From Bradyrhizobium sp. 139 (GTDB lineage Bacteria > Pseudomonadota > Alphaproteobacteria > Rhizobiales > Xanthobacteraceae), in the NCBI RefSeq assembly GCF_023074175.1, contig NZ_JADPKS010000024.1, positions 62,001 to 126,000 on the forward strand: DNA of 64,000 nucleotides. The letters are read 5' to 3'. Numbering within the stretch: position 1 is the first letter of the stretch; every line of letters begins with the position of its first letter. Under the pieces are notes generated by a model. The model was not told the DNA's origin and ran no database searches. It worked only from the letters and a program-made list of their open reading frames with translations. The translations under genes and the position numbers were made by a program. Positions 5,691 through 24,631 of this stretch are shown in pieces.

Positions 5691-6503
5691 ATGACGAAAA
5701 TCTCACTCGTGGTTTCCGACGTCGACGGCACGCTGCTGACCAAGGACAAGACGCTGACGGAACGTGCGAGGTCCGCGGTGCAGCGGCTGCACCAGGCCGG
5801 CCTCGGCTTCACCATCACCTCCAGCCGCCCCGCGATCGGCATGCGCTTCCTGATCGAGCCGCTTGCGCTCTGGCTGCCGGTCGGCCCGTTCAACGGCTCC
5901 TCGATCGTCGATCCCGAGATGCGCCCCGTCGAGCAGCACCTGATCCCGGCGAGCGCCGCCAAACGGTCCTTGCAGATCCTCCGGGAGTTCGGTGCCGACA
6001 TCTGGCTGTTCACCTCCGACAAATGGCTGATCGATAACCCAAGCGGCCCATACGTTGCGCACGAGCAGCACACGATCCGGTCCGATCCGACCATCGTGAC
6101 GGATTTTTCGCCGTACCTTTCGAGCGCCTGCAAGATCGTCGGCGCCAGCGCTGATGCGGTCGGCCTCGAGGCTTGCGAGAAGGTGATGCAGGAGGCGCTC
6201 GGCAGCCAGGCGACCGCGGTGCGCTCGCAGACCTATTATCTCGACGTCACGCCGCCCGGTTTCGACAAGGGCACGTTCGTGCAGGCGACGGCCAAGCGCC
6301 TTGGCATTTCGACCGACGCGGTTGCCACCATCGGCGACATGCAGAACGATCTCGCGATGTTCCGCGTCAGCGGCGTCTCGATCGCCATGGGCAATGCTGC
6401 CGACAACGTCAAGGACCAGGCCACCCACGTCACCGCAACAAATGAGCAGGACGGTTTTGCCGAAGCGATGGAGATGATCTTGAAGCGAAATGGGGCCGGT
6501 TGA
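5691..6503 (+). CDS. Cof-type HAD-superfamily phosphatase
   Basis: A 270-residue HAD hydrolase of the Cof/Cap-domain (IIB) type. HAD motif I is SDVDGTLL (~8-15), motif II is the TSSRP segment (~43-47), and motif IV is GDMQNDLAMF (~220-229) with the preceding lysine in FDKGTF. Such enzymes dephosphorylate sugar phosphates or cofactors; the substrate cannot be read from sequence. Its position as the last gene of the pentose phosphate operon suggests a sugar-phosphate substrate, which is inference. It starts 24 bp after gntK. Confidence 0.88.
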   Translation: MTKISLVVSDVDGTLLTKDKTLTERARSAVQRLHQAGLGFTITSSRPAIGMRFLIEPLALWLPVGPFNGSSIVDPEMRPVEQHLIPASAAKRSLQILREFGADIWLFTSDKWLIDNPSGPYVAHEQHTIRSDPTIVTDFSPYLSSACKIVGASADAVGLEACEKVMQEALGSQATAVRSQTYYLDVTPPGFDKGTFVQATAKRLGISTDAVATIGDMQNDLAMFRVSGVSIAMGNAADNVKDQATHVTATNEQDGFAEAMEMILKRNGAG

Positions 6504-6611: not shown

Positions 6612-8456
6612 CTATTTCGACCGCTGCACAGCCGGCTTCTCGCTCTGCTGTCTTGCCGCGGAGAGATTGTGCGCGGTGTTGATCAGCGCGATGTGGGTCA
6701 ACGCCTGGGGGAAATTCCCGGTCTGGCGCCGGGCGTCTGAATCATATTCTTCAGCCAATAGTCCCACGTCGTTCGCAACGCCCACCACGCGATCGAACAA
6801 GGCCTGCGCCTTATCGAGATCGCCCGACAGCACATGGGCATCGGCCAGCCACAGGCTGCATGCCAGGAACGCGCCTTCGAGCGGAGGTTGCCGCGCAGGC
6901 ATCTCGCGCGGATCGTGCCGCAGCACGAAACCGTCGCGCATCAGGCATTTCTCGATGGCTGCGATGGTGCCGCGGATGCGCGGATCTTCCGCGGGCAGGA
7001 ATCCGACCGCGGGCAGCAGCAGCACGCTGGCATCGAGCAGTTTCGAGCCGTAGGACTCGACGAAGGCATTCTCCCCCGCGTCAAATCCCCTGTTGCAGAC
7101 ATCGCGATGAATGGCTTCGCGCAACGTGCGCCAGTGCAGCAGCGGCGCCTTGAAGCCGAAGGTCTCGGCGCTCTTGATGCCGCGGTCGAACGCGACCCAG
7201 GTCATGACCTTGGAGAAGACGTAGTGCCTGGGTTGCCCGCGCCGCTCCCAGATGCCGTGATCGGGCTCGTCCCAAACCTCGGCGAGATGGTTGAGCACGG
7301 CGCATTCCAGCGCCCAGGTCGCCTCGTCGTCGAGCTTGAGCTTGGCCGTGCGCGACTGGTGGAAGGCGTCGATCAGTTCGCCGTAGACATCGAGCTGGAG
7401 CTGCGCATGCGCGGCATTGCCGACGCGCACCGGCTGCGCGCCCTCATAACCGCCCAGCCAGCCCGCCTCCCATTCCAGCAGACGCCGCTGGCCCCAGATG
7501 CCGTACATGATCTGCATGTTCGACGGCGAGCCTGCCGCCGCGCGCAGCAGCCAATTGTGCCAGGCCGATGCTTCCTCGGTATAACCCGAGTTCATCAGCG
7601 CCAGCAGCGTGAAGGTGGCATCGCGCAGCCAGCAGAAGCGGTAATCCCAATTCCGCATCCCGCCGAGCTTTTCCGGCAACGAGGTGGTGGGCGCCGCGAC
7701 GATGCCGCCGGTCGGGCCGAAGGTCAGCGCCTTCAGCGTAATCAGCGAGCGCACGATCAGATCGTGATAATCGCCGTCGCGGGTGCAATTGCTGCACCAG
7801 TGTTGCCAGAATTTCTCGGTCTCCTGAAGCGCAATCTCCGGGTCGATCGGCGCCGGCAGTTCGAGATGCGAGGGGCCGTAGGTCAGCACGAAGGGTACGG
7901 CCTCACCGGCCTTCACTTCGAAATCGGAGACCGTGGTCAGATCCTCGCCGCGGGTCTCCGCCGGCGTGCGCAGCACCGTCATGTCCTGGCCGGCGACCGC
8001 CAGCAGCGAATGGTCGATGCGTCGCACCCAGGGAATGTCAACGCCGAAGCCGAAGCGAATGACGAGCTCCATCCGCATCTTCACCGCGCCGCTCACACCG
8101 CGGACCAGCCGCACGACGTCGGAGGCCTTGCCGCGCGGCGGCATGAAGTCGATGAGCGCAACGGCGCCGCTCTTGGTCTCGAAGCGCGTTTCGAGGATGA
8201 GGGTGTTGCCGAGATAGCGGCGCGAGATACCGGTGACGTCCTCGCTCGGTGCGATCAGCCAGCGGCCGTTCTTGTGCGTGCCGAGGATCGCGGCGAAGCA
8301 GGCATCGGAATCGAAGGCCGGCCAGCACAGCCAGTCGATCGAGCCGTTGCGCCCGACCAGCGCCGCGGTCTCGCAATCGCCGATCAGCGCATAGTCCTCG
8401 ATCCTCTGAGACAATGTCGTTCGAACCTTGGGAAGTCGAATCCCCGGGGTGATCAA
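6612..8456 (-). CDS. Glycoside hydrolase family 15 protein (glucoamylase/trehalase-like)
   Basis: About 614 residues. The N-terminal motif RIEDYALIGDCETAALV followed by NGSIDWLCWPAFDS is typical of bacterial GH15 proteins. The (alpha/alpha)6 catalytic part contains NWDYRFCWLRDA, an acidic GYEGAQPVRVGNAA segment, and GIWERRGQPRHYVFSKVM carrying a candidate catalytic glutamate. The family hydrolyses alpha-glucans or trehalose. TTG at 8456 overlaps the malQ stop (TTGA) and is my preferred start; TTG at 8414 is the alternative. Upstream in-frame residues to 8828 are the wrong-frame reading of malQ and were excluded. It is co-directional with malQ. Confidence 0.85.
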   Translation of the reverse strand: MITPGIRLPKVRTTLSQRIEDYALIGDCETAALVGRNGSIDWLCWPAFDSDACFAAILGTHKNGRWLIAPSEDVTGISRRYLGNTLILETRFETKSGAVALIDFMPPRGKASDVVRLVRGVSGAVKMRMELVIRFGFGVDIPWVRRIDHSLLAVAGQDMTVLRTPAETRGEDLTTVSDFEVKAGEAVPFVLTYGPSHLELPAPIDPEIALQETEKFWQHWCSNCTRDGDYHDLIVRSLITLKALTFGPTGGIVAAPTTSLPEKLGGMRNWDYRFCWLRDATFTLLALMNSGYTEEASAWHNWLLRAAAGSPSNMQIMYGIWGQRRLLEWEAGWLGGYEGAQPVRVGNAAHAQLQLDVYGELIDAFHQSRTAKLKLDDEATWALECAVLNHLAEVWDEPDHGIWERRGQPRHYVFSKVMTWVAFDRGIKSAETFGFKAPLLHWRTLREAIHRDVCNRGFDAGENAFVESYGSKLLDASVLLLPAVGFLPAEDPRIRGTIAAIEKCLMRDGFVLRHDPREMPARQPPLEGAFLACSLWLADAHVLSGDLDKAQALFDRVVGVANDVGLLAEEYDSDARRQTGNFPQALTHIALINTAHNLSAARQQSEKPAVQRSK

Positions 8457-10414
8457 CTCTCGCCGGTCAACGAACGTTCCCGCGTCGCGGCCTTCAAAGC
8501 CGCGAGATCGACCCTGGCGGCGATCCTGTCGAGCGCCACCGGCAGGCGCTGGCGCCAGTTCGGATGCTCGTCGATGGTGCCGGGAATGTTGGGCTGGTCG
8601 ATCACGCCGAGCAGATCCTCCAGCGACACCGCCAGCAGCCGCGACGGCGTCCGCGACAGGAAGGCGAGCACCGAATAGAGATCGTTGGCGTTGATGCCGT
8701 TCTGGTGCAGGATCTCGTCGAGCCTGCCGAGCGCATCCCAGCGCGCCTGGTCGTCCTCGCCGGGATCGAGCCCGAGCGAGAGCTTCATCCTGAGGTCGCT
8801 GAAGGAGCGCCAGCCTGCATAGGTGCACAGATCATGCGTGTTCAGCGTGACCAGCGCATTGGGCCGGTAATGATCGGTATTGCGGAAATGGCCGGCATCG
8901 TCGCGCTCGAACATCATGACGAGATAGGACCAGATGCCGAAATCCTGCATGGTCTCGCGAAAACCTTCCGGCACGGTGCCGAGATCCTCGCCGATCACGA
9001 TGCATTTGTGCGCCGCGCTCTCGCGCACCACTGCGCCGAGCAGCGCTTCGAACGGCATCTGCACATAGGCGCCGTTGTCCGGTTTGAATCCGCGCGGCAC
9101 GAGATAGAGCCGCTTCAAGCCCAGCACATGATCAAGCCGGATGGCGCCGGCATGGCGCATCGAGGCAGCCAGCATGTCGGCGAACGGCACGAAGGATTGG
9201 GCCTCCAGGCCACCGGCATTGAAGCCGGCAAGGCCCCAGTCCTGTCCGACGGTGTTGAGCACATCAGGCGGCGCGCCGACGGCGAGATGGCGCGATATCG
9301 CCATCTGCTCGTTCCAGGCGTCGAAGCCGTTGGACTGCACACCGACGGCGACATCGAGATAGAGGCCGACGCGCATGCCAAGCTGGCCGGCAAGTTCCTT
9401 GGCCGCATGCAATTGCGAATCTGCCGTCCACTGCGCGAATTCGACGAACTCGACGTCGCGCTTGACGGAACCGTTGCGGAGCTCGGCGCATTTGGCTTCA
9501 TCCGGCTGCTGCCATTCTTGCGGCCACTCCCACCATGGTCCGGTGAAGCGATGCCGCAGCACCTCGAAGCAGGCAAAGCGGGACAATAGCGGCGCGCGCG
9601 CGGCACGGAATGCGTCAAATTCCTTGCGGCGCGCTTCGCTCGCGCTGGTCAAGAAACTGCTGAAGGCGGCGCGCAGGCCCAGCCATTTCAACGCCGCCAT
9701 GTCCGCATAAGGCACACGATCGCCTTCACGCAGCCGCGCGGCGGTCGCGGCCGCATCGGGGACGAGGTCGGGGGAAAATTCCGGGATCGCCTCGACGTCG
9801 ATGTAGAGCGGGTTGAGAAACAGCCGGCTGTTCGGCGAATAGGGGCTGCAATCGGCCGGCTGATTGTCGAACAGGACGTGCAGCGGGTTGAGCCCGACGC
9901 CGTCGGCCCCTAACTGCCTGGCGAGCCGGACGAGGCCGGCAAGATCGGTGAAATCGCCGATGCCCCAATTGCGGTCCGAGCGGACGCTGTAGAGCTGCAC
10001 GGCAAGCAGCCAGCCGCGGTCGAAATCGCCGCCGAAGGCACGTTCGGGCGCCACGATCATCGGCACTTCTTCAGTCACGCCTTTGGCATCGGTCAGTGTC
10101 AACCGGTGATAACCGAGCGGCAGGCCCGCAGGCCACGCGATCACGGGCTCGCGCGTCTCGCCTTGTGCGATCACCTTGCCTTTTCCGGTGATTTTCCATT
10201 GCAGCGGCGCAGCGCCAATGGCCGCCAGTTCGGTCCGCGGCTTTCCCAAGGCGCGCACCACGACCGGCCCGCTGACGAAGCGATAGACCCGCTTCTCCGG
10301 CAGCGCATCGAGGATGGATTTGAGGGCCACGGGATCGGTGACCCGCAGCTTTCCGAGGGCGTCTACGAATTCAGACTGGACGCCCTTGATCCGGGCTTGA
10401 GCTAAAAGATCCAT
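8453..10414 (-). CDS. malQ: 4-alpha-glucanotransferase (amylomaltase)
   Basis: A 653-residue GH77 protein that transfers alpha-1,4-glucan segments between maltodextrins. Visible motifs: LAVQLYSVRSDRNWGIGDF (~170-190), IRLDHVLGLKRLYLVPRG with the nucleophile Asp (~425-445), VIGEDLGTVPEGF with the acid/base Glu (~470-485), and TLNTHDLCTYAGW with the third acidic residue (~525-535). The N-terminal ~150 residues form the extension seen in many proteobacterial MalQ proteins. The 3' end overlaps the GH15 start by 4 bp. It is divergent from glgE, with ~200 bp of promoter space between. Confidence 0.93.
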   Translation of the reverse strand: MDLLAQARIKGVQSEFVDALGKLRVTDPVALKSILDALPEKRVYRFVSGPVVVRALGKPRTELAAIGAAPLQWKITGKGKVIAQGETREPVIAWPAGLPLGYHRLTLTDAKGVTEEVPMIVAPERAFGGDFDRGWLLAVQLYSVRSDRNWGIGDFTDLAGLVRLARQLGADGVGLNPLHVLFDNQPADCSPYSPNSRLFLNPLYIDVEAIPEFSPDLVPDAAATAARLREGDRVPYADMAALKWLGLRAAFSSFLTSASEARRKEFDAFRAARAPLLSRFACFEVLRHRFTGPWWEWPQEWQQPDEAKCAELRNGSVKRDVEFVEFAQWTADSQLHAAKELAGQLGMRVGLYLDVAVGVQSNGFDAWNEQMAISRHLAVGAPPDVLNTVGQDWGLAGFNAGGLEAQSFVPFADMLAASMRHAGAIRLDHVLGLKRLYLVPRGFKPDNGAYVQMPFEALLGAVVRESAAHKCIVIGEDLGTVPEGFRETMQDFGIWSYLVMMFERDDAGHFRNTDHYRPNALVTLNTHDLCTYAGWRSFSDLRMKLSLGLDPGEDDQARWDALGRLDEILHQNGINANDLYSVLAFLSRTPSRLLAVSLEDLLGVIDQPNIPGTIDEHPNWRQRLPVALDRIAARVDLAALKAATRERSLTGES

Positions 10415-10618
10415 TCGGCACGCGGCTTGCAGGCCACCCTGTCGTCGGGGGCATCGATTTTTACGAGGCGGTGGAAGACGTTAGTCAGACTTAACTCGCA
10501 ACCCGGGCTGGCCGTTCCCAAGGGAACTAATGCCACACAACCGGCTTTCTATATAGGTATCAAGCGTAGGTTCCCGACAAGGGAAACGGGCTCCTGCTTT
10601 CTTGTCAATGGCATCACC
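10415..10618. promoter_or_regulatory. Divergent malQ / glgE promoter region with two similar inverted repeats
   Basis: Between malQ (-) and the proposed glgE start (+) lie two inverted repeats sharing TTCCC/GGGAA arms: 10514-10527 (GTTCCC AA GGGAAC) and 10570-10587 (GTTCCC GACAA GGGAAAC). An AT-rich CTATATAGG stretch between them (about 10549-10557) could be a -10 element. Paired repeats in a divergent promoter suggest a regulator binding site, but no regulator is identified. Confidence 0.35.
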
Positions 10619-12565
10619 GTGAACAAGACAATTCAAACTGTCGAGAGTGCCGCAGCCGGCAGCGCTTTCCTGATCGAGGACGTCTATCCCTTGATCGACG
10701 GCGGCCGCTTCGCCGTGAAGCGGATCGCGGGCGAACGGATCGAGGTCTGGGCCGACATCTATCGCGACGGCGATGCAGTGATCGGAGCAGCGCTGATCTG
10801 GCGCCGCGAGCAGGACCGGGAATGGCGGAGCGAGCCGATGATCCATCAAGGCAATGACCGGTGGTCCGGCGCGTTCACAATCCTCGAGCCCGGCCAATAT
10901 GTCTACGCGATCGAAGCCTGGACCGATGAATTCGCCACCTGGTCGCACGGGGTCGCACGCAAGCAGCGCGCCGGTGCGGACATCAGCCTCGATGCGATCG
11001 AGGGCGCCGGCCTCCTGACCAAGGCGCATGGCGCGCGGCAGGACGCTGCGGCGGTCATCGTGAAGCAATGCGAGGATTATCTTCAGACCGGCGATGTCGG
11101 CTCGCTGCTTGCAGCCGAACTCGGCGCGGCCATGGCTGAAAGCCAGTCGCGGCCCGACCTGACCCGCTCGCAGAACTTCCCGTTGATCGTCGACCGCGAC
11201 AAGGCGCGCTTTGGCGCCTGGTATCAGATGATGCCGCGCAGCCAGAGCCAGATTCCCGGCCGGCACGGCACGCTCCGTGACTGCATCGCGCGCGTGCCCG
11301 ACATCGCCGCGATGGGCTTTGACGTGCTTTACTTCACGCCCATCCACCCGATCGGCCACACCCGCCGCAAGGGCCGAAACAATACGCCGGTGGCGACCGA
11401 AGGCGATCCCGGCTCGCCCTATGCGATCGGCACTGCCAAGGGCGGGCACGATGCGCTGCATCCTGAGCTCGGCACGATCGAGGATTTCCGCGCGCTGGTC
11501 GCGACCTGCCTCGAATACGGCCTCGAGCTCGCACTCGACTTCGCCGTGCAATGCTCGCCGGATCATCCCTGGCTGACGCAGCATCCGGAATGGTTCAAGT
11601 GGCGGCCGGACCGCTCGGTGCGGACGGCGGATGGCCCCTATTCGGACATCGTCATTCCCGATTTCGCCTCCGTCGACAGGGCCGGGCTGTGGAACGCGTT
11701 TCGCGATGCCATGCTGTTCTGGATCGACCATGGCGTCACCATCTTCGCCATCGACAATCACGACACCGCGCCGCTTCCGTTCTGGGACTGGCTGATCGGC
11801 GATATCCGCCGCCGCCATCCCGAGGTAATCCTGTTCTCCAAGACTTTTGCGCGGCCAAAGCTGATGAAGGGCCTCGCCAAGCTCGGCTTTGCGCAGTCCT
11901 TCACCTATTTCCCCTGGCGCACGGCGAAGTGGGAGCTGGAGCAATATCTGGACGAGCTGACCCGATATCCCGGGCGGGACTTCTATCGGGCGAACCTGTT
12001 CGTGAGCACGCCCGACCTGCTGCCGTATCATCTCCAGGGCGGCGAGCCCTGGGCGTTCAAGTCGCGAGTCGCGCTGGCCGCGATGCTGTCTGGCAGTTAC
12101 GGCATCTACAGCGGATTCGAGCTGCTGGAGCACGACGCGATCCCCGGCCGCGAAGAATATCTGGATTCCGAGAAATACCAGATCAGGCAGCGCGACTGGG
12201 ATCGGCCCGGCAACATCAAGCCCTACATCGCTGCGCTCAATCGCATCCGCAATGATAACGCCGCACTTCGGCAAACGCAGAACTTGCGCTTCCTCGGCAT
12301 CGAGGATGGCGAGACGATCGCTTTTGCCAAGGAGGCGGCTGATCCGGCCAATACCGTCGTCGCGGTCATCGCCCTCTCGCGCCGTGTGCGCGAATTCTGG
12401 CTGCCGCTCGGCGACCTCACCATCGACGCCGGCGGCGCGCGCCGCCACGTCACCGCACTCGAAAATATCCTCACAGGCGAACAGTCCCGCGTCGAATGGG
12501 GCGGGATCAGATTGCGTATCGATCCCGACCGCGATCCGGCGCTGCTGTTCCGCTGCCTGGCGTAA
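10619..12565 (+). CDS. glgE: GlgE-like GH13 protein (maltosyltransferase homologue) with altered active site
   Basis: The overall sequence matches alpha-1,4-glucan:maltose-1-P maltosyltransferase: [18 protein letters not shown] at the N-terminus, [46 protein letters not shown] and [19 protein letters not shown] near the C-terminus. GlgE extends glucan using maltose-1-phosphate made by TreS-maltokinase, encoded next. Key residues differ: where the family has FRVDNPHTKP this protein has [10 protein letters not shown] (nucleophile Asp379 kept, invariant Arg replaced by Ala377). Where the family has the acid/base Glu in AEAFTRP it has SKTFARP (Lys408). Asp466 of the third motif is kept. It may be inactive as an enzyme. 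The start is uncertain: GTG 10619 is chosen because family homology begins just after it; an in-frame ORF extends to 10427. Confidence 0.85.
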
Positions 12566-12576
12566 AGGCGCACGCC

Positions 12577-15862
<3,286 letters not shown>

Positions 15863-15870
<8 letters not shown>

Positions 15871-18010
15871 ACTGCCAGCCGAGGCCTACGCGATCATCGA
15901 GGGCCGCCACTCCGACCCCTTTCATTATCTCGGCTTGCATCCCGAGGGCGGCAAGAGCGTGGTGCGCGCGTTCCTCCCCGAGGCCGCCAATGTCGAGGTG
16001 GTGGGCGACCATGGCGAGGTGGCGAAGCTCGATCGCGTCCACGATTCAGGCCTGTTCATCGGCGCCCTGCCGAACGGCTCGAAGCACTACCAGCTGCGCG
16101 CCAAGTTCGGCGACAAAGTCGTCGAGTTCGAGGACGCCTATCGCTTCCCGCCGATCCTGACCGATTTCGATCTCTATCTGCTCGGCGAAGGCACCCACCA
16201 GCGCCTCTACGACAAGCTCGGCGCGCACCCGATGCGGCTCGAAGGCATCGAGGGCGTCGGCTTCGTCGTGCTGGCGCCGAATGCGCGGCGCGTGTCCGTG
16301 GTCGGCGATTTCAATTTCTGGGACGCGCGGCGCCATCCCATGCGGGTGCGCGGTGCCGGCTATTGGGAGCTGTTCATCCCGCACGCCAAGAGCGGCGATC
16401 ACTACAAGTTCGATATCATCGGGCCGCGCGGCCATCAATTGCCTCTGAAGTCCGATCCCATGGCATTTGCGAGCGAGGTGCGGCCGAAGACGGCTTCCAT
16501 CGTGTTCGACGAGGCGCATCTGCCGCGGCCGCGCCCGGCGCCGGACGGCATCAACGCGCTGTCCGCGCCGATGTCGATCTACGAGGTCCATCTCGGTTCG
16601 TGGCGGCGCAAGAACGGCGACGAATGGCTCACCTATCGCGAACTGGCCGAACAGCTGCCGGCCTATGCCCGCGACATGGGTTTCACCCATCTCGAATTCC
16701 TGCCCGTCAGCGAGCATCCGTTCGACGGCTCCTGGGGCTATCAGCCGACCGGCCTCTATGCACCGACCAGCCGCTTCGGCACGCCGGAGGATTTTGCCGC
16801 GCTGGTCGATGCCTGCCATCGCGAGGGCGTCGGCGTGCTGCTCGACTGGGTGCCCGGCCACTTCCCCGACGATCCGCACGGGCTCGGCAGCTTTGACGGC
16901 ACCTCGTTTTATGAGCATGCCAATCCGCTCCAGGGCCGCCACCTCGACTGGGGCACGCTGATCTACAATTACGGCCGCACTGAAGTGACGAACTTTTTGG
17001 TGTCGAACGCGCTGTTCTGGCTCGAGCGTTACGCGATCGACGGCCTGCGCGTCGATGCGGTCGCGTCCATGCTCTATCTCGACTATAGCCGCCCGCCCGG
17101 CGCTTGGATTCCGAACCAGTATGGCGGCCGGGAGAACATCGAGGCGATCGCGTTCCTGCGCCGCTTCAACACCGAACTGTTCGCGCGCTTCCCGCAGGCG
17201 ACCACGGCGGCCGAGGAATCCACGGCATGGCCGCAGGTCTCACGCCCGGTCGAATTCGGCGGGCTCGGCTTCGGCTACAAGTGGAACATGGGCTGGATGC
17301 ACGACACGCTGAACTACATCAGCAAGGATCCGATCCACCGCAAGCATCATCACGGCGAGATCCTGTTCGGCCTGCATTATGCTTTCTCGGAGAATTTCAT
17401 CCTGCCGCTGTCGCACGACGAAGTCGTGCACGGCAAGCGTTCGATCCTCGGCCGCATGCCCGGCGACGAATGGCAGCGCTTTGCGAATTTGCGCGCCTAT
17501 TACAGCTTCATGTTCGGCCATCCCGGCAAGAAGCTGCTGTTCATGGGCGCGGAGATCGCACAGAGCCGCGAATGGAATCACGACCAGTCGCTCGACTGGC
17601 ACCTGCTCGAATACAAGTATCATTCCGGCATCCAGGCACTGATCCGCGACCTCAACCGGCTCTATCGCGCGGTGCCGGCGCTGCACCAGATGGATTGCGA
17701 ACAGGCCGGCTTCGAATGGCTGATCACGGATGACGCCAACCGCAACGTGTTCGCCTGGCTGCGCAAGGGATTTGACGAGCATGCGCGGTGTCTCGTGATC
17801 ATCAACTTCTCACCCAACGTCTATCGCAACTATCGCGTCCCCGTACCTTTTGCCGGCAAGTGGAAAGAGGTGTTCAATTCCGACTCCGCCCACTATGGCG
17901 GCACCAATGTCGGGAACATCGGCGAGGTTCATGCGGTTGACGGCAAGATCCCCGAGCTTCGCCTCACCATTCCGCCGCTCGCCGCGATCTTCCTCGTTCC
18001 GGAAAGCTGA
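15863..18010 (+). CDS. glgB: 1,4-alpha-glucan branching enzyme
   Basis: A 715-residue GH13_9 branching enzyme that introduces alpha-1,6 links into glucan. An N-terminal CBM48-type domain (~110-220, containing [15 protein letters not shown]) precedes the barrel. Catalytic motifs: [25 protein letters not shown] with Asp398, AEESTAWP with Glu451, and [10 protein letters not shown]; the 53-residue spacing between Asp398 and Glu451 matches E. coli GlgB. ATG 15863 lies inside the last codons of treS-mak, so translation is probably coupled. glgX starts 3 bp after its stop. Confidence 0.96.
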
Positions 18011-18013
18011 CCG

Positions 18014-20092
18014 ATGCGCCTGACTGCCGGATCGCCCGCACGCCTCGGCGCAAGCTGGGACGGACGCGGCACCAATTTCGCGCTGTTCTCCGCCAATGCC
18101 GAGAGGATCGAACTGTGCCTGTTCGACAGCCAAGGCCGCCGCGAGCTCGAACGCATCGAATTGCCGGAGCGCACCGAGGACGTCTGGCACGGCTATCTCA
18201 ACGACGTCTCACCGGGCCAGCTCTACGGCTACCGGGTGCACGGCCCCTACGAGCCCGAGCACGGCCACCGCTTCAACGCCAACAAGCTGCTGCTCGACCC
18301 CTACGCCAAACGGCTCGCCGGACGGCTGGTCTGGAGCGATGCGCATTTCGCCTATCGCACCGGCTCGCCGCGCGAGGACCTCTCCTTCGACCGGCGCGAC
18401 AATGCCCGCGGCATGCCCAAGGCGGTCGTCGTCGACGAGACCTTCAACTGGGGCCGCCGCGAGATCCGCCCCCACATCGCCTGGGAAGACACCATCATCT
18501 ACGAGGCCCATGTAAAAGGCTTGACGCAGAAGCGAGGGGACGTGCCGCCGAACCTGCGCGGCACCTATGGCGGACTGTCGTCGCCCGCAATGATCGAGCA
18601 TTTGAAGAAGCTCGGCGTCACCACGATAGAGCTCCTGCCGATCCACAGCTTCATCGACGACCGCATTCTTGTCGAGAAGAAGCTTGTCAATTACTGGGGC
18701 TACAACACGCTGTCGTTCTTCGCGCCGGAGCAGCGCTACGCCCAGGACAATGCGCTCGATTCCTTCCGCACCACGGTCGCGCGCCTGCACGATGCCGGCA
18801 TCGAGGTGATGCTCGACGTCGTCTACAACCACACCGCCGAAGGCAATCACCTCGGTCCGAGCCTGTGCTATCGCGGCATCGACAATGCCTCCTATTACTG
18901 GTTGAACCGCGAGAACCCGCGCTATTACGACGACTTCACCGGCTGCGGCTCGTCGGTAAACCTCACCCATCCGCGCGTGCTCCAGATGGTGATGGATTCG
19001 CTGCGCTATTGGGTCGAGGTCTGCCATGTCGACGGCTTCCGCTTCGATCTCGCCACCACGCTCGCGCGCGGGCCGAACGGTTATGATCGCGGCATCTCGT
19101 TCCTGACGGCGATCCGGCAGGACCCGGTGCTGGCGACGGTCAAGCTCGTCGCCGAACCCTGGGATCTCGGGCTCGGCGGCTACCAGGTCGGCGCATTCCC
19201 TTCACAATGGTCGGAGTGGAACGATCGATATCGCAGCGCCATGCGCCGCTACTGGAGCGGCGAAGGCAGCCTGATCGGCGACATCTCCAGCCGCATGACG
19301 GCCTCATCCGACCTGTTCAACCATGATGGACGACGGCCGCGCGCCAGCATCAACCACATCACCGTGCATGACGGCTTCACACTCGCCGACCTCTTCAGCT
19401 ACAACGAAAAGCACAACGAGGCCAATGGCGAGGACAACCGCGACGGCTCCAGCGACAACCACAGCAACAATTGCGGTGTCGAGGGTCCGACCGACGATCC
19501 GAACATTCTCGGGCTGCGACGGCAGCTTCGCAGGAACGTGCTGGCCTGCCTGATGCTGGCGCAGGGCATTCCGCTGATCCTCGCCGGCGACGAGGTTGGC
19601 AATTCGCAGTCCGGCAACAACAACGCCTATTGCCAGGACAACGAGGTCGGCTGGGTCGGCTGGGACAATCTCGGCAAGGACGGCGACGACATGGTCGATT
19701 TCGTCGCCGGGCTCGCCGACATCCGCCGCAGGTTCTCGCAGCTTCGCAGCCATCGCTGGCTCGACGGCCGCCCCAAGGACGGCATCTCCTACGGCGCGCT
19801 GTGGCTGACGCCCGCCGGCGACGAGATGACGGAGAGCGACTGGAAATTCCCGGAAGGGCGGTTCCTCTCTTATGTGATGGGGCCGATGGAACCCGGCAGC
19901 GCCGCGATCTTTATCGTACTGAACGCCGCCCCCGAAGAAATCGCATTCAAATTGCCCAAAATGACCGAATACAAGAGCTGGCAGCAGATCCTGAACACCA
20001 CCGATGCCAAGCTGAACAGCGTTGATTTCCTGCCTGGAAGCGACAGCAAGGCGTCGCCGCGCTCCGTGCTCGCCTTCGCGGGGGCGCTATGA
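18014..20092 (+). CDS. glgX: Glycogen debranching enzyme
   Basis: A 692-residue GH13_11 isoamylase-type enzyme that hydrolyses alpha-1,6 branches. Motifs: N-terminal CBM48 (LGASWDGRGTNFALFSANA), DVVYNHTAEGNHLGP, GFRFDLATTLAR with the nucleophile Asp, LVAEPWDLGLGGYQVG with the acid/base Glu, and VHDGFTLADLFSYNEKHN with the third acid. It is close to the usual ~660-720 residues. Its ATG lies 3 bp after the glgB stop, and its stop overlaps the treZ start by 4 bp (ATGA). Confidence 0.95.
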   Translation: MRLTAGSPARLGASWDGRGTNFALFSANAERIELCLFDSQGRRELERIELPERTEDVWHGYLNDVSPGQLYGYRVHGPYEPEHGHRFNANKLLLDPYAKRLAGRLVWSDAHFAYRTGSPREDLSFDRRDNARGMPKAVVVDETFNWGRREIRPHIAWEDTIIYEAHVKGLTQKRGDVPPNLRGTYGGLSSPAMIEHLKKLGVTTIELLPIHSFIDDRILVEKKLVNYWGYNTLSFFAPEQRYAQDNALDSFRTTVARLHDAGIEVMLDVVYNHTAEGNHLGPSLCYRGIDNASYYWLNRENPRYYDDFTGCGSSVNLTHPRVLQMVMDSLRYWVEVCHVDGFRFDLATTLARGPNGYDRGISFLTAIRQDPVLATVKLVAEPWDLGLGGYQVGAFPSQWSEWNDRYRSAMRRYWSGEGSLIGDISSRMTASSDLFNHDGRRPRASINHITVHDGFTLADLFSYNEKHNEANGEDNRDGSSDNHSNNCGVEGPTDDPNILGLRRQLRRNVLACLMLAQGIPLILAGDEVGNSQSGNNNAYCQDNEVGWVGWDNLGKDGDDMVDFVAGLADIRRRFSQLRSHRWLDGRPKDGISYGALWLTPAGDEMTESDWKFPEGRFLSYVMGPMEPGSAAIFIVLNAAPEEIAFKLPKMTEYKSWQQILNTTDAKLNSVDFLPGSDSKASPRSVLAFAGAL

Positions 20093-21843
20093 GGCCATCC
20101 TTCGGGGCGAGGCCGACCAAGGACGGCGTGTCGTTCCGGCTGTGGGCGCCCGGTGCTCGCCGTATCGATCTCCTGCTCGACGGGAGGCACGCGATGCAGC
20201 GCCGGCAGGATGGCTGGTATGTCGCCGAGATTGCCGGCTTGAGCGTCGGCAGTCCCTACAAATTCAGGATCGACGACGAGATCGACGTGCCCGATCCTGC
20301 ATCCGCCTTCCAGCCAGAAGACGTTTCTGGCCCGAGCGAAGTGGTCGATCATGATGCCTTCGCATGGCGCGCGCGCGATTGGCGCGGACGTCCCTGGGAA
20401 GAGACGGTGCTGATCGAGACCCATGTCGGCACCTTCACGCCTGAGGGCACCTGCCGCGCCATGATCGACAAGCTCGATCATCTCGTCGCAACCGGCATCA
20501 CTGCGCTGGAATTGATGCCGCTGGCCGATTTCGCGGGCCGCCGCGGCTGGGGCTATGACGGCGTGCTGTGGTACGCGCCCGACAGCGCCTATGGCCGGCC
20601 CGAGGACCTGAAGGCGCTGATCGACGAGGCGCATCTGCGCGGGCTGATGGTGTTCCTCGACGTCGTCTACAATCATTTCGGACCGGAAGGAAATTACCTC
20701 GGCCGCTACGCGCCAACCTTCTTCACCGATGCGCACACGCCCTGGGGCAGCGCAATCGACTATCGCGTGCCGCAGGTGCGTGCGTTCGCGGTCGAGAACG
20801 CACTGTCCTGGCTCAGCGACTACCGCTTCGACGGCCTGAGACTCGATGCCGCCAATCACATCATGGCGATCCCGGGCGAGCAGTCGATGTTGCAGGACCT
20901 CAGTGTCGCCGCCGGCGAGCTCGCCAAGGCCACGGGGCGGCACATCCATCTCGTGCTGGAGAACGGCGACAACCGCGCCAGCCTGCTCGATGCCGGCCAG
21001 GATCCGCCCAACGGCAAATATCGCGGGCAGTGGAACGACGACTATCACCACGTCTGGCACGTGATGCTGACGGGCGAGCTCGCCGGCTACTACGCCGACT
21101 ACCAGACGCCGCGCATGGATCTTGCGCGCGCGCTCGCGTCGGGCTTCGTCTATCAGGGCGAGATCTCGGAATTCTGGGGCAAGAAGCCGCGCGGCGAGGC
21201 GAGCGGTGAGCTGCCGCCGGCCACCTTCGTCAACTTCCTGCAAAACCACGACCAGATCGGCAATCGCCCACTGGGTGATCGGCTCGAGAGCCTGGCATCG
21301 CCGCAGCAGATCGAAGCCGCGCTCGCGGTGACACTGCTCGCACCGATGGTGCCGATGCTGTTTCAGGGCGAGGAATGGGGCTCGACGGTGCCCTTCCCGT
21401 TCTTCTGCGATTTCCAGGGTGGCCTTGCCGACGCCGTGCGCGAGGGTCGCAAGCAGGAATATGCCTGGGCTTACGAGAAATATGGCGACGAAGTGCCCGA
21501 CCCGCTCGATCCCGCAACGCTGCAATCGGCCGTTCTGGATTGGACCGGCCACACGCCGGAGCAGGACACGCGGCTCGCCCGGGTGCGGGACCTGCTCGCA
21601 CTCCGCCACAAGGCGATCGCGCCGCGGCTGAAGAATGCGAAGTTCGGCGATGCCGCGGCGGCCGATAGCGGCCTGCTCACCGCGCATTGGCGCATGGGCG
21701 ATGGCACGACGTTACGCCTGACCGCCAATCTCTCGGACAAGGACATCGCACGTCCCGGCGATGCTACGGGCACGCCTATCTGGGGCGCTATCAACGGCGA
21801 TCGGCTCCCGCCCTGGTCAGTGATCTGGCATCTCGGAGGTTAG
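20089..21843 (+). CDS. treZ: Malto-oligosyltrehalose trehalohydrolase
   Basis: A 584-residue GH13_10 enzyme that releases trehalose from maltooligosyltrehalose made by TreY. The N-terminal beta domain (SFRLWAPGARRIDLLL) is followed by the barrel motifs DVVYNHFGPEGNYL, GLRLDAANHI, a VLENGDN segment with the catalytic Glu, and NFLQNHDQIGNR. It overlaps glgX by 4 bp and is followed 1 bp later by treY, so the TreZ-TreY pair is co-expressed in the order usual for this pathway. Confidence 0.95.
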   Translation: MRPSFGARPTKDGVSFRLWAPGARRIDLLLDGRHAMQRRQDGWYVAEIAGLSVGSPYKFRIDDEIDVPDPASAFQPEDVSGPSEVVDHDAFAWRARDWRGRPWEETVLIETHVGTFTPEGTCRAMIDKLDHLVATGITALELMPLADFAGRRGWGYDGVLWYAPDSAYGRPEDLKALIDEAHLRGLMVFLDVVYNHFGPEGNYLGRYAPTFFTDAHTPWGSAIDYRVPQVRAFAVENALSWLSDYRFDGLRLDAANHIMAIPGEQSMLQDLSVAAGELAKATGRHIHLVLENGDNRASLLDAGQDPPNGKYRGQWNDDYHHVWHVMLTGELAGYYADYQTPRMDLARALASGFVYQGEISEFWGKKPRGEASGELPPATFVNFLQNHDQIGNRPLGDRLESLASPQQIEAALAVTLLAPMVPMLFQGEEWGSTVPFPFFCDFQGGLADAVREGRKQEYAWAYEKYGDEVPDPLDPATLQSAVLDWTGHTPEQDTRLARVRDLLALRHKAIAPRLKNAKFGDAAAADSGLLTAHWRMGDGTTLRLTANLSDKDIARPGDATGTPIWGAINGDRLPPWSVIWHLGG

Positions 21844-21844
21844 C

Positions 21845-24631
21845 ATGCCTCCTGCCATTCCGCTTGCGACCTATCGGCTTCAGCTCACCGCGGATTTCGA
21901 CTTCGACAAGGCCTCAACGATTATTCCCTATCTCAAGGCGCTGGGCATCACGCATCTCTACGCCTCGCCGGTGATGAAGGCGCGCAAGGGCTCGACCCAC
22001 GGTTACGACACCGTCGATCACAGCCAGCTCAGTCCCGAGCTCGGCGGCGAGGCCGGCTTTGCCCGGCTGAGCGACGCCCTCAAGCAGCACGACCTCGGCC
22101 TCATCATCGATTTCGTTCCGAACCATGTCGGCGTGCACTTCGCCGACAATCCCTGGTGGCTGGATGTGCTGGAATGGGGGCAGGCCTCGCCGCATGCGGT
22201 TTCCTTCGACATCGACTGGGATCAACTGGCCTACCGCGCCCGCGGCGGCGTGCTGCTGCCGATCCTCGGCTCGCCCTATGGCGAGGCGCTGGAGCGCGGC
22301 GAGATCGAGCTGCACTACGATCCCGACGAAGGCAGTTTTTCCGCCTGGTATTTCGAGCATCGCCTGCCGATCGCGCCGGAGCGCTATGGCGAAATGCTGC
22401 GCATGATCGTGAAGGAAGCGGACGCCGCCGAGACGGAGGCCGGCAAGCGCCTGCTCGCGCTCGCGGCGCGCTACACCGGATTGCGCCGCCCTAACCGCAA
22501 GCAAGCGCCCGGCTTCAAAGCGGAGCTCAAGGATATCGCAGGCAGCGCCGACATCATCGTACGCGGCCTCGCCGCCTATCGTTCCGCCAAGGATCGTCCG
22601 GCGCAGACGCTGGCGCTGCATCATCTGCTGGAGCGCCAGCACTACAAGCTCGGGCACTGGCGGCTTGCCTCCAGCGACATCAATTATCGCCGCTTCTTCG
22701 ACGTCAATGGGCTTGCGGGGCTGCGCGTCGAGGATCCCGGCACGTTCGCCGCCACGCACCGGCTGGTGAAGCAGCTCATTGCGGACGGCAAGCTGCAAGG
22801 CATCCGCCTCGATCACATCGACGGCCTGCGCGATCCCGCCCAATATTGCCAGCGGCTGCGCCGGCTGGTGCGCGACGCGCAAGGCAACACAAAACCGTTC
22901 TATACCGTGGTCGAAAAAATCCTATGCGAGCACGAGCGCCTGCCGCATCTTGCCGGCGTGCAGGGCACCACGGGCTATGAGTGGATGAACGTCATCACCC
23001 AGGTTCTGGTCGACGCGAAAGGGCTGGAGGCGCTGAACGAGATCTGGCGGCAGATCAGCAACCGGCCGCCGCAGCTAGCACCTTACGTCAAGGACGCCAG
23101 GCGGCGCGTGCTCGAGACCCTGCTGACCAGCGAATTCATCGTGCTGAGCCGTCTGCTCGCGCGCATTGCCAACGGCCACTACTCGACCCGCGACTTTTCC
23201 GCCGACAGCCTGCGGCAGGCGCTCGAACTCTATGTGCTGCACTTCCCGGTCTATCGCACCTACCTGACGCATAGTGGCCCGACTGCCCTCGACCGCAAGC
23301 TGATCGACGGCACCATCGAACGCGCCCGCTCGGACTGGTTCGCCGCGGACGAAGGCATTTTCGCCTTCCTGCGCGACGCGCTGACCATGGACCTGCTCAA
23401 GCCCGGTCGTCCCCCGCACAGTGCGCCGCGGGTGCGCCGCTTCGCGTTGAAGGTGCAGCAGTTCACGGGACCGATGACGGCGAAGTCGCTGGAGGACACC
23501 GCGTTCTATCAATTCCACCGGCTGCTCGCCCTGAACGAGGTCGGCGGCGATCCCGCGAGCACCGGCCTCACGATACCTGCCTTCCACGAGGCCATGCGCG
23601 CGCGCGCCAAAGAATGGCCGCAAGGGATGACGGCAACCGCGACCCACGACACCAAGCGCGGCGAGGATGCCCGTGCGCGGATCGCGTCACTCAGCCAGAT
23701 TCCCGGCGAGTGGACCAGCGCGGTTTCGCGCTGGAAGGTGCTGAATGCGCCCCACCTCGCGCTCCAGGCCGATCTGCGCGCGCCGTCCGCAACGGTCGAA
23801 TACATGCTCTACCAGACCCTGCTCGGCGCCTGGCCGCTCCAGGGGCCGGCGGATGCCGACTTCGTCGAGCGCATCCAGGCCTATGCGCTGAAGGCTGCGC
23901 GCGAGGGCAAGGAGGAGACCAGCTGGCTCAATCCGCACGAGGCGTACGAGAACGGCATCAACAGTTTCATCGAGAAAATCCTCGACCCCGCGCAATCCGG
24001 CGAGTTCCTGGAGGCGCTGCAAACCCTGGCGCGCCGCGTCGCGCTGCTCGGCGCCTTGAATTCGCTGAGCCAGCTCACGCTCAAGGCGACACTGCCTGGC
24101 GTGCCTGATTTCTACCAAGGCACTGAATTCTGGGACATGTCGCTGGTCGATCCCGACAACCGCCGCTCCGTGGATTTTGCCGCGCGGCAGGCGGCGCTCG
24201 CCTTGCTGGAAACTCCGGACTGGCGCGGTCTGATCAAGACCTGGCCGGACGGCCAGCTCAAGCTGGCCTGGACGCGGCACCTCCTCAAGCTTCGCAACGA
24301 ACTCGCAGACGTCTTCATGCAGGGCGATTACCAGCCGCTGGAGGTGCGCGGCGCCCACGCCGACCATGTCATCGCCTTCGCCCGCCGCCGTGGCCGCAGC
24401 GCGGCAATCGTCGTGGTCGGGCGCCTGTTCGCGCCATTCACGCAAGCGGGGCGGGAATGGCCGGTGCTTGAAGAATTCGACGCGACTGTCGATATCACAG
24501 GCTATGCGGCGCCGGGACTTTCGGCCAATGAACTGCCGCTCGCGCAGGCCTTCCGCGATTTTCCCGCTGCCGTCATTGAGGCGCGCGCCGAAAGCACTGT
24601 GAAGTCCGCACGGCCACGTGTGCGCGCCTGA
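21845..24631 (+). CDS. treY: Maltooligosyl trehalose synthase
   Basis: A 928-residue GH13_26 protein that converts the reducing end of maltodextrin to a trehalose unit by intramolecular transglycosylation. Characteristic motifs: TYRLQLTADFDFDKA at the N-terminus, SPVMKARKGSTHGYD, IDFVPNHVGVH, GIRLDHIDGLRDP with the nucleophile, VVEKILCEHERLP with the acid/base Glu, and ATHDTKRGEDARARI near residues 600-615. It is the last gene of the + strand glucan operon and ends 3 bp from the convergent PHA-type gene. Confidence 0.95.
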   Translation: MPPAIPLATYRLQLTADFDFDKASTIIPYLKALGITHLYASPVMKARKGSTHGYDTVDHSQLSPELGGEAGFARLSDALKQHDLGLIIDFVPNHVGVHFADNPWWLDVLEWGQASPHAVSFDIDWDQLAYRARGGVLLPILGSPYGEALERGEIELHYDPDEGSFSAWYFEHRLPIAPERYGEMLRMIVKEADAAETEAGKRLLALAARYTGLRRPNRKQAPGFKAELKDIAGSADIIVRGLAAYRSAKDRPAQTLALHHLLERQHYKLGHWRLASSDINYRRFFDVNGLAGLRVEDPGTFAATHRLVKQLIADGKLQGIRLDHIDGLRDPAQYCQRLRRLVRDAQGNTKPFYTVVEKILCEHERLPHLAGVQGTTGYEWMNVITQVLVDAKGLEALNEIWRQISNRPPQLAPYVKDARRRVLETLLTSEFIVLSRLLARIANGHYSTRDFSADSLRQALELYVLHFPVYRTYLTHSGPTALDRKLIDGTIERARSDWFAADEGIFAFLRDALTMDLLKPGRPPHSAPRVRRFALKVQQFTGPMTAKSLEDTAFYQFHRLLALNEVGGDPASTGLTIPAFHEAMRARAKEWPQGMTATATHDTKRGEDARARIASLSQIPGEWTSAVSRWKVLNAPHLALQADLRAPSATVEYMLYQTLLGAWPLQGPADADFVERIQAYALKAAREGKEETSWLNPHEAYENGINSFIEKILDPAQSGEFLEALQTLARRVALLGALNSLSQLTLKATLPGVPDFYQGTEFWDMSLVDPDNRRSVDFAARQAALALLETPDWRGLIKTWPDGQLKLAWTRHLLKLRNELADVFMQGDYQPLEVRGAHADHVIAFARRRGRSAAIVVVGRLFAPFTQAGREWPVLEEFDATVDITGYAAPGLSANELPLAQAFRDFPAAVIEARAESTVKSARPRVRA

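Follow-up and report, generated by a model that had tools for sequence, protein, structure and literature searches.

The window analysed here, a stretch of 64,000 nucleotides from Bradyrhizobium sp. 139, contains a gene row in the order malQ (divergent), glgE, treS-mak, glgB, glgX, treZ and treY. The forward strand carries the glgE homologue (10,619–12,565), a TreS–maltokinase (Mak) fusion of 1097 amino acids (12,577–15,870), the branching enzyme gene glgB (15,809–18,010), the debranching enzyme gene glgX (18,014–20,092), treZ (20,089–21,843) and treY (21,845–24,631). The divergent neighbour malQ (8453–10,414, reverse strand) is separated from glgE by an intergenic region at 10,415–10,618 (read on the forward strand). 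Near the row lies a Cof-type HAD-IIB sugar-phosphatase-like gene (5691–6503, forward strand), a candidate for hydrolysing whatever sugar phosphate may still be produced. Adjoining malQ, a trehalase-like protein, which we take to be GH15, is encoded at 6612–8828 (reverse strand) and matched NCBIfam TreH1/TreH2 under their cut-offs. A 655-codon open frame runs antisense to glgE (10,481–12,448, reverse strand); it showed no sign of being a gene, and long antisense open frames are common in high-GC DNA.

The GlgE homologue comprises 648 amino acids with a GTG start and combines a PF11896 N/S domain (181 bits against a cut-off of 25 in the profile search) with an alpha-amylase-type barrel. Its residues 18–643 matched solved GlgE proteins in phmmer searches (best 5vsj, E = 3e-146; 3zss, E = 2.3e-145). 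Sites are given below in S. coelicolor numbering unless identified as window residues. The initial annotation had described a GlgE homologue lacking some of its catalytic residues, and our reading of the open reading frame (ORF) and the phmmer alignment bore out its coordinates, its 648-codon length and the residues Ala377, Asp379, Lys408 and Asp466. In the alignment, in which the nucleophile stretch lies opposite FRVDNPHTKP, Ala377 (11,747–11,749) occupies the position of the conserved Arg392, and Asp379 (11,753–11,755) corresponds to the former nucleophile Asp394. Likewise, FSKTFARP lies opposite LAEAFTRP, which places Lys408 (11,840–11,842) at the acid/base Glu423, and the third acid, Asp480, is kept as Asp466. 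The loss of catalytic residues claimed earlier was thus confirmed against the S. coelicolor enzyme. The alignment also revealed changes absent from that annotation. His381-Asp382-Thr383-Ala384 (11,759–11,770) replaces Pro396-His397-Thr398-Lys399 (Pro396 to His381, His397 to Asp382 and Lys399 to Ala384), and the loop that forms the site for the phosphate of maltose 1-phosphate is reduced to a remnant at 11,630–11,638, where ENPPKKY has become DGP followed directly by Y, with Asn352 gone and three residues deleted. The counterparts of the other phosphate contacts, Tyr357 and Asn395, are kept. These three contacts were carried over by us from N371, Y376 and N414 of the M. thermoresistibile enzyme as given in the accessible part of PMC4663749, and the residue roles in general were drawn from the accessible parts of PMC5076824 and PMC4663749. 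An AlphaFold model built from 22 rows had a mean pLDDT of 50 and was set aside as evidence.

A GlgE relative was found in 115 of the 146 Bradyrhizobium genomes sampled and was absent from the other 31. The catalytically dead type occurred in 77 genomes, with the catalytic sites read in all 77, and the dead clade includes records under the names B. japonicum and B. diazoefficiens; USDA 110 and the strain meant in the accessible part of PMC8084333 lie outside the sequences read. Canonical proteins formed group A (19 genomes, all read, G126 included) and group B (14 genomes, including G048), the latter having a phosphate loop with H-x-PQ(R/H)W. Four genomes carried canonical copies of approximately 60% identity, and in one (G082) the triad was kept with other contacts lost. 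The 80 named loci that we examined overlap with the sampled genomes. No mixed form was found among 250 rows, 160 of which lacked both the Arg and the Glu while 90 had both. Across the class, 31 of 289 genomes gave a match, the window's own genome included, and of the 29 loci read in its other families, 28 had the full R/D/E/D set. The exception (L312, genome G337) is a distant GlgE relative, at 30%–34% identity, whose residues at the Arg, nucleophile and Glu sites are likewise altered in the alignment; it possibly represents another non-canonical GlgE family.

Several of the remaining forms deserve mention in their own right. In group B (L206–L210, L218 and L327), the triad is kept with Asn352 changed to His and Tyr357 to Trp. 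This group has the look of an intermediate stage, with loss of the phosphate site preceding that of catalysis. The G082 protein (L221, 5495–7516) has changes at His397, Tyr445, Trp448, Arg449 and Tyr535, an insert of approximately 25 residues and a degenerate Mak, and is apparently a decaying copy. Two of the four copies of approximately 60% identity lie on a second island, glgE-mak-glgX (reverse), in G102 and G053 (L198 and L200); the other two were found in G051 and G109 (L150 and L151). The native locus of G102 (L199) has no glgE, and the GlgE step may have been regained by transfer.

The initial annotation had offered an active GlgE elsewhere in the genome as one explanation of the altered protein. 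The search of the window's genome assembly argued against this, as PF11896 and the protein itself each gave a single match, with no second GlgE. In addition, the 208 plasmid records that matched contained no GlgE at ≥ 80% identity to that of the window.

To describe conservation across the dead clade, 107 distinct dead-type sequences were compared with 50 canonical ones (group A, the island copies and other genera of the family), with group B and G082 set aside. Arg392, Glu423 and His397 were each present in 0 of the 107, whereas Lys408, His381 and Asp382 were invariant. Chance, sequencing error or decay in a single strain can be ruled out, since 107 distinct sequences carry the same changes. 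The nucleophile was kept in a fraction of 0.981, being replaced by Val or Ala in two distinct members (L026, and L077 with its repeat L265). Sixteen positions were fixed differently in the dead and live sets, and 13 of these lie between residues 361 and 467, the stretch that holds the catalytic residues. Nonetheless, 164 of the 218 positions invariant in canonical proteins were kept at ≥ 98% in the dead type.

The sugar subsites were among the features retained. Of the donor-sugar contacts, Lys264 (window Lys251, 11,369–11,371), Asp359, Asp480, Lys534 and Tyr535 (window Lys519 and Tyr520, 12,173–12,178) were present in all 107 sequences, and Gln324, Ser279 and Asn268 in fractions of 0.991, 0.953 and 0.916, respectively. 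The window protein itself carries the counterparts of Lys264, Asn268, Gln324, Asp359, Lys534 and Tyr535. Among the acceptor contacts, retention was 1.0 for Trp448, 0.991 for Pro428, 0.963 for both Tyr445 and Arg427, and 0.953 for Arg449; Tyr445, Trp448 and Arg449 correspond to window Tyr430, Trp433 and Arg434 (11,906–11,920).

The reading frame and substitution rates indicated that the dead form is maintained. An unbroken match over residues 1–648 was obtained in 76 of the 77 dead-type genomes, and the frame was split in the remaining one (G077). A further set of 159 full-length, stop-free dead loci repeats some genomes, was picked for one alignment over ≥ 88% of the length and is blind to frameshifts. 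The dN/dS values, which are simple estimates (pairwise Nei–Gojobori medians), were 0.156–0.159 for dead GlgE (88–94 sequences, 600 random pairs). In a matched set, dead GlgE (26 loci) gave 0.180, compared with 0.129 for group A, 0.206 for group B and 0.186 for other genera; larger sets gave 0.130 for group A and 0.165 for group B. The claim that retention of a full-length ORF speaks against simple decay therefore held across the clade, given the unbroken frames, the dN/dS of ca. 0.16–0.18 and the 107 distinct sequences. However, relative to TreS, dead GlgE was about twice as free (GlgE/TreS 0.180/0.053) as the group A protein (0.129/0.095). This higher ratio suggests somewhat relaxed constraint and counts against the pseudoenzyme reading. 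Lost catalytic residues, an intact frame and purifying selection across the clade, the marks of a pseudoenzyme, thus occur together in this protein.

The TreS–Mak fusion was altered in one of its halves. In the TreS half (amino acids 22–557) the motifs are intact, and three motif stretches were identical in all 119 rows compared. The Mak half (amino acids 571–1088) was mapped on the 4u94 chain, in which HGD at 303–305 agrees with the M. vanbaalenii numbering in the accessible part of PMC4306142. Catalytic Asp305 is kept as Asp946, and Arg948 replaces His307 (both within 15,412–15,420), a residue assigned to the likely substrate pocket in the same part of that paper. In the maltose site, Lys413 and Tyr416 have given way to Gln1061 and Asp1064 (15,757–15,768), and Asp also stands at Glu324 and Glu326. 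The M. vanbaalenii enzyme lost practically all activity when Lys413, Tyr416 or Tyr420 was mutated, according to the text available (PMC4306142). Among 123 rows with dead GlgE, a count in which the window and some genomes appear twice, His307 and Tyr416 were never found, Lys413 was found in 7 and Tyr420 in 117, and positions 413 and 416 now vary (6 and 7 residue types) while Arg948 is fixed. Given these replacements, the fusion of the window probably makes little or no maltose 1-phosphate, and the kinase half is, with good confidence, no longer a maltokinase. The initial annotation had taken the neighbouring TreS–maltokinase to be intact and still able to make maltose 1-phosphate; its view of TreS stands, whereas its view of the kinase, and the production of maltose 1-phosphate inferred from it, would not. 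Lys149, Asp305 and the Mg-binding Asp322 are kept in 123 of 123 rows, and Mak may therefore remain a kinase of some substrate. It weakly matched the glucosamine kinase 6hwj (E = 7.7e-11).

A textbook Mak was found in all 22 rows with a textbook GlgE, the GlgE being canonical in all 22 (L220 included), and one 13-residue Mak string was common to 11 of 11 group A rows and 11 of 11 other-genus rows of the tree set. In contrast, all nine tested Mak sites together were kept in none of the 53 rows with dead or absent GlgE, although four GlgE-absent rows still keep the four pocket sites. Group B Mak showed Ser136 changed to Pro, Glu324 to Asp and Glu326 to Gly in 6 of 6 rows. The Mak/TreS dN/dS values were 0.235/0.053 in the dead set, 0.254/0.073 where GlgE is absent, 0.175/0.095 in group A, 0.147/0.064 in group B and 0.276/0.126 in other genera. 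The Mak/TreS ratio was thus highest in the dead and absent sets, whereas the absolute Mak value was highest in other genera (0.276 vs. 0.235 in the dead set).

A tree of TreS (residues 1–560), GlgB and GlgX from 83 rows, built by a quick method with LG+G4, recovered the dead type as a single clade (SH-aLRT 99), whose sister, L109, has a live GlgE and a textbook Mak. The glgE-less state needs at least four changes on this tree, all at the same place and with malQ next to treS-mak; since at least four lineages do without it, glgE is dispensable in the genus. In 26 loci without glgE, of which 25 come from the 31 genomes lacking GlgE and one is the native locus of G102, a gap of 277–355 bases separates the facing malQ and treS-mak genes, and malQ stands beside the locus whether glgE is live, dead or absent. 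The malQ of B. barranii subsp. apii 1S5 (L032, 5839–7796) was matched in two pieces (residues 1–354 and 356–653) and likely carries a frameshift. Upstream of glgE, a putative GGAAC(C/T)...GGCTTT.TATAT-like block, identified by eye in a 14-locus alignment, is common to dead- and live-GlgE loci. An EcfG-type promoter at this place was rejected: the strict form of GGAA(C/T)-N15–18-(C/G)GTT, which we take to be the general-stress (EcfG-type) pattern, occurred on the strand of glgE at 8 of the 84 canonical loci and 1 of the 26 loci without glgE, and at none of the 120 dead ones.

The tree offered five independent contrasts that set live GlgE against its dead or absent state; Mak changed in the same direction in three to five of them and in the opposite direction in none, and five pairs cannot reach 0.05. 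GlgC, counted as present at E ≤ 1e-60, was found in 77 of 77 dead-type genomes (partial and below the cut-off in G054), 14 of 14 group B genomes, 3 of 19 group A genomes, 7 of 31 GlgE-less genomes, one of the four genomes with the 60% copy, and G082. These counts are suggestive of GlgC as a cause of GlgE loss, but independent contrasts on the tree lent this no support, and the association with dead GlgE rests on the single origin of the clade. The Mak family was present in 145, glgA-type genes in 144 and phosphorylase in 144 of the 146 genomes. In the window's genome, glgC and glgA lie side by side on contig C100, with a second glgA-type match and one phosphorylase match; two further TreS-like proteins fell below the family cut-off (C104: 34,868–36,478 and C77: 80,058–81,659).

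Comparison with known systems helps to place the protein. It shares whole-length homology, the N/S domain, the donor and acceptor contacts and the place ahead of treS-mak and glgB with GlgE, the alpha-1,4-glucan:maltose-1-phosphate maltosyltransferase (GH13_3; S. coelicolor 3zss and relatives). In contrast to these enzymes, it is without Arg392, Glu423, His397, Lys399 and the phosphate loop and should not be a maltosyltransferase, a conclusion that we regard as very probable from its residues. The fusion likewise shares the TreS motifs and the Mak HGD and DF(E/D) with TreS–Mak and maltokinase proteins (4u94, 5jy7 and 4o7o), whereas Lys413, Tyr416 and His307 of the maltose pocket are replaced in the dead clade. 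Plant ISA2 is similar in being an alpha-amylase-superfamily protein that has lost catalytic residues and is kept by selection in a glucan-making setting, as described in the part of PMC12510319 available to us. ISA2 is a noncatalytic GH13 protein of starch synthesis, a paralogue beside active ISA1 that binds it, while in the window's genome no active GlgE copy was found, and ISA2 lost the nucleophile that dead GlgE has mostly kept. According to the portion of PMC5076824 consulted, mutation of Glu423 in S. coelicolor GlgE cost activity, the E423A form bound malto-octaose over subsites −2 to +6, and binding of maltose and a maltopentaose was seen with D394A; a GlgE that has lost catalysis can thus still hold maltodextrin.

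We favour, with moderate confidence, the reading that this is a fixed GlgE pseudoenzyme in a maltose-1-phosphate branch broken at two steps, and most likely a non-catalytic maltodextrin/alpha-glucan-binding protein. In a single ancestor within the genus, GlgE would have lost the phosphate site, the conserved Arg and the acid/base Glu, and the TreS–Mak fusion of the dead clade would have lost the kinase maltose pocket. The steps from maltose to maltose 1-phosphate and on to alpha-glucan were most likely broken together, judging from residues of known role. Loss of GlgE in M. tuberculosis leads to toxic build-up of maltose 1-phosphate, as stated in the consulted portion of PMC5076824; with both steps dead, such build-up need not arise. 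TreS would be left for trehalose–maltose exchange, and glycogen could come from GlgC–GlgA. In B. diazoefficiens, treS is controlled by sigma-EcfG, and earlier work reported more trehalose and less maltose in treS mutants, as cited in the accessible part of PMC8092242. GlgE, kept by purifying selection with its maltose and maltodextrin subsites, would hold maltodextrin or alpha-glucan beside TreS, GlgB and GlgX, by analogy with ISA2 beside ISA1. Of the ligands that the initial annotation had proposed for a possible new role as regulator, sensor or scaffold, a glucan agrees better with the residues still present than does maltose 1-phosphate, for which the phosphate loop is gone. That the protein is kept for a binding role has, in our estimate, about an even chance. 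The nucleophile and third Asp kept in nearly all dead-type sequences count against the pseudoenzyme reading, and the GlgC–GlgM route, an alternative source of maltose 1-phosphate in the part of PMC11046441 available, counts against a broken branch, given the two glgA-type matches in the window's genome. Tentatively, and as a rather unlikely idea, roughly half of the Bradyrhizobium species sampled could have turned GlgE, holding maltodextrin without using it, and the TreS-fused kinase with its rebuilt pocket into a binding or regulatory pair that gates the trehalose–maltose exchange of TreS by glucan state.

The losses could also reflect slow decay, in which GlgC–GlgA made the branch useless, glgE and mak are eroding, and glgE persists owing to its position at the head of the row, with its translation immediately preceding that of treS. 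The repeated glgE-less states with malQ next to treS-mak, the greater freedom of Mak relative to TreS, the split frame in G077 and the G082 protein, with its triad kept but Tyr445, Trp448 and Arg449 lost and an insert present, are all consistent with erosion. However, the glgE-less loci themselves show that treS needs no glgE ahead of it, and the nearly universal unbroken frame (76 of 77), a dN/dS of 0.16–0.18 like that of live groups, the invariance of His381, Asp382 and Lys408 and the 164 of 218 canonical positions still kept are difficult to reconcile with it, so that we consider slow decay rather unlikely.

A new catalytic activity appears improbable to us, although the kept nucleophile and third Asp, with His381, Asp382 and Lys408 fixed for another reaction on maltose or maltodextrin, would provide a plausible basis for it, and the clustering of 13 of the 16 differently fixed positions between 361 and 467 agrees with such a change. 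GH13 enzymes with an aberrant triad can indeed be active: BmaN1, as described in the accessible part of PMC5347038, shares a changed catalytic set and is active with only its third Asp changed to His. In the dead clade, by contrast, the Arg and the acid/base residue are both gone, and two distinct members have also lost the nucleophile. Mak and GlgE might instead have been re-purposed jointly, with Mak phosphorylating another sugar and the GlgE relative binding or processing the product. The intact ATP and Mg residues in 123 of 123 rows, the changed maltose pocket with its fixed Arg948 and the weak similarity to glucosamine kinase would fit this, but the variability at 413 and 416 looks like loss and the phosphate loop of GlgE has gone, which makes joint re-purposing very improbable.

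The residue evidence sits badly with the complete glgE operon that the accessible part of PMC8084333 (2021) credits to B. japonicum. Our literature search, with most subscription papers outside its coverage, found no published inactive GlgE in rhizobia. Judging from its residues, the GlgE route credited to B. japonicum probably fails at the kinase step as well as at the transferase step in the clade that contains records so named. A single locus presents a natural series, from live GlgE with textbook Mak, through a live triad in which the phosphate site and Mak are altered, to dead GlgE and finally no GlgE, so that the order in which a pathway with an intermediate toxic elsewhere was lost can be tested directly. 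It would also provide a GH13 pseudoenzyme of bacterial origin in a genus whose laboratory strains are well used, and the old GlgE may now serve another job in this large group of bacteria from soil and root nodules.
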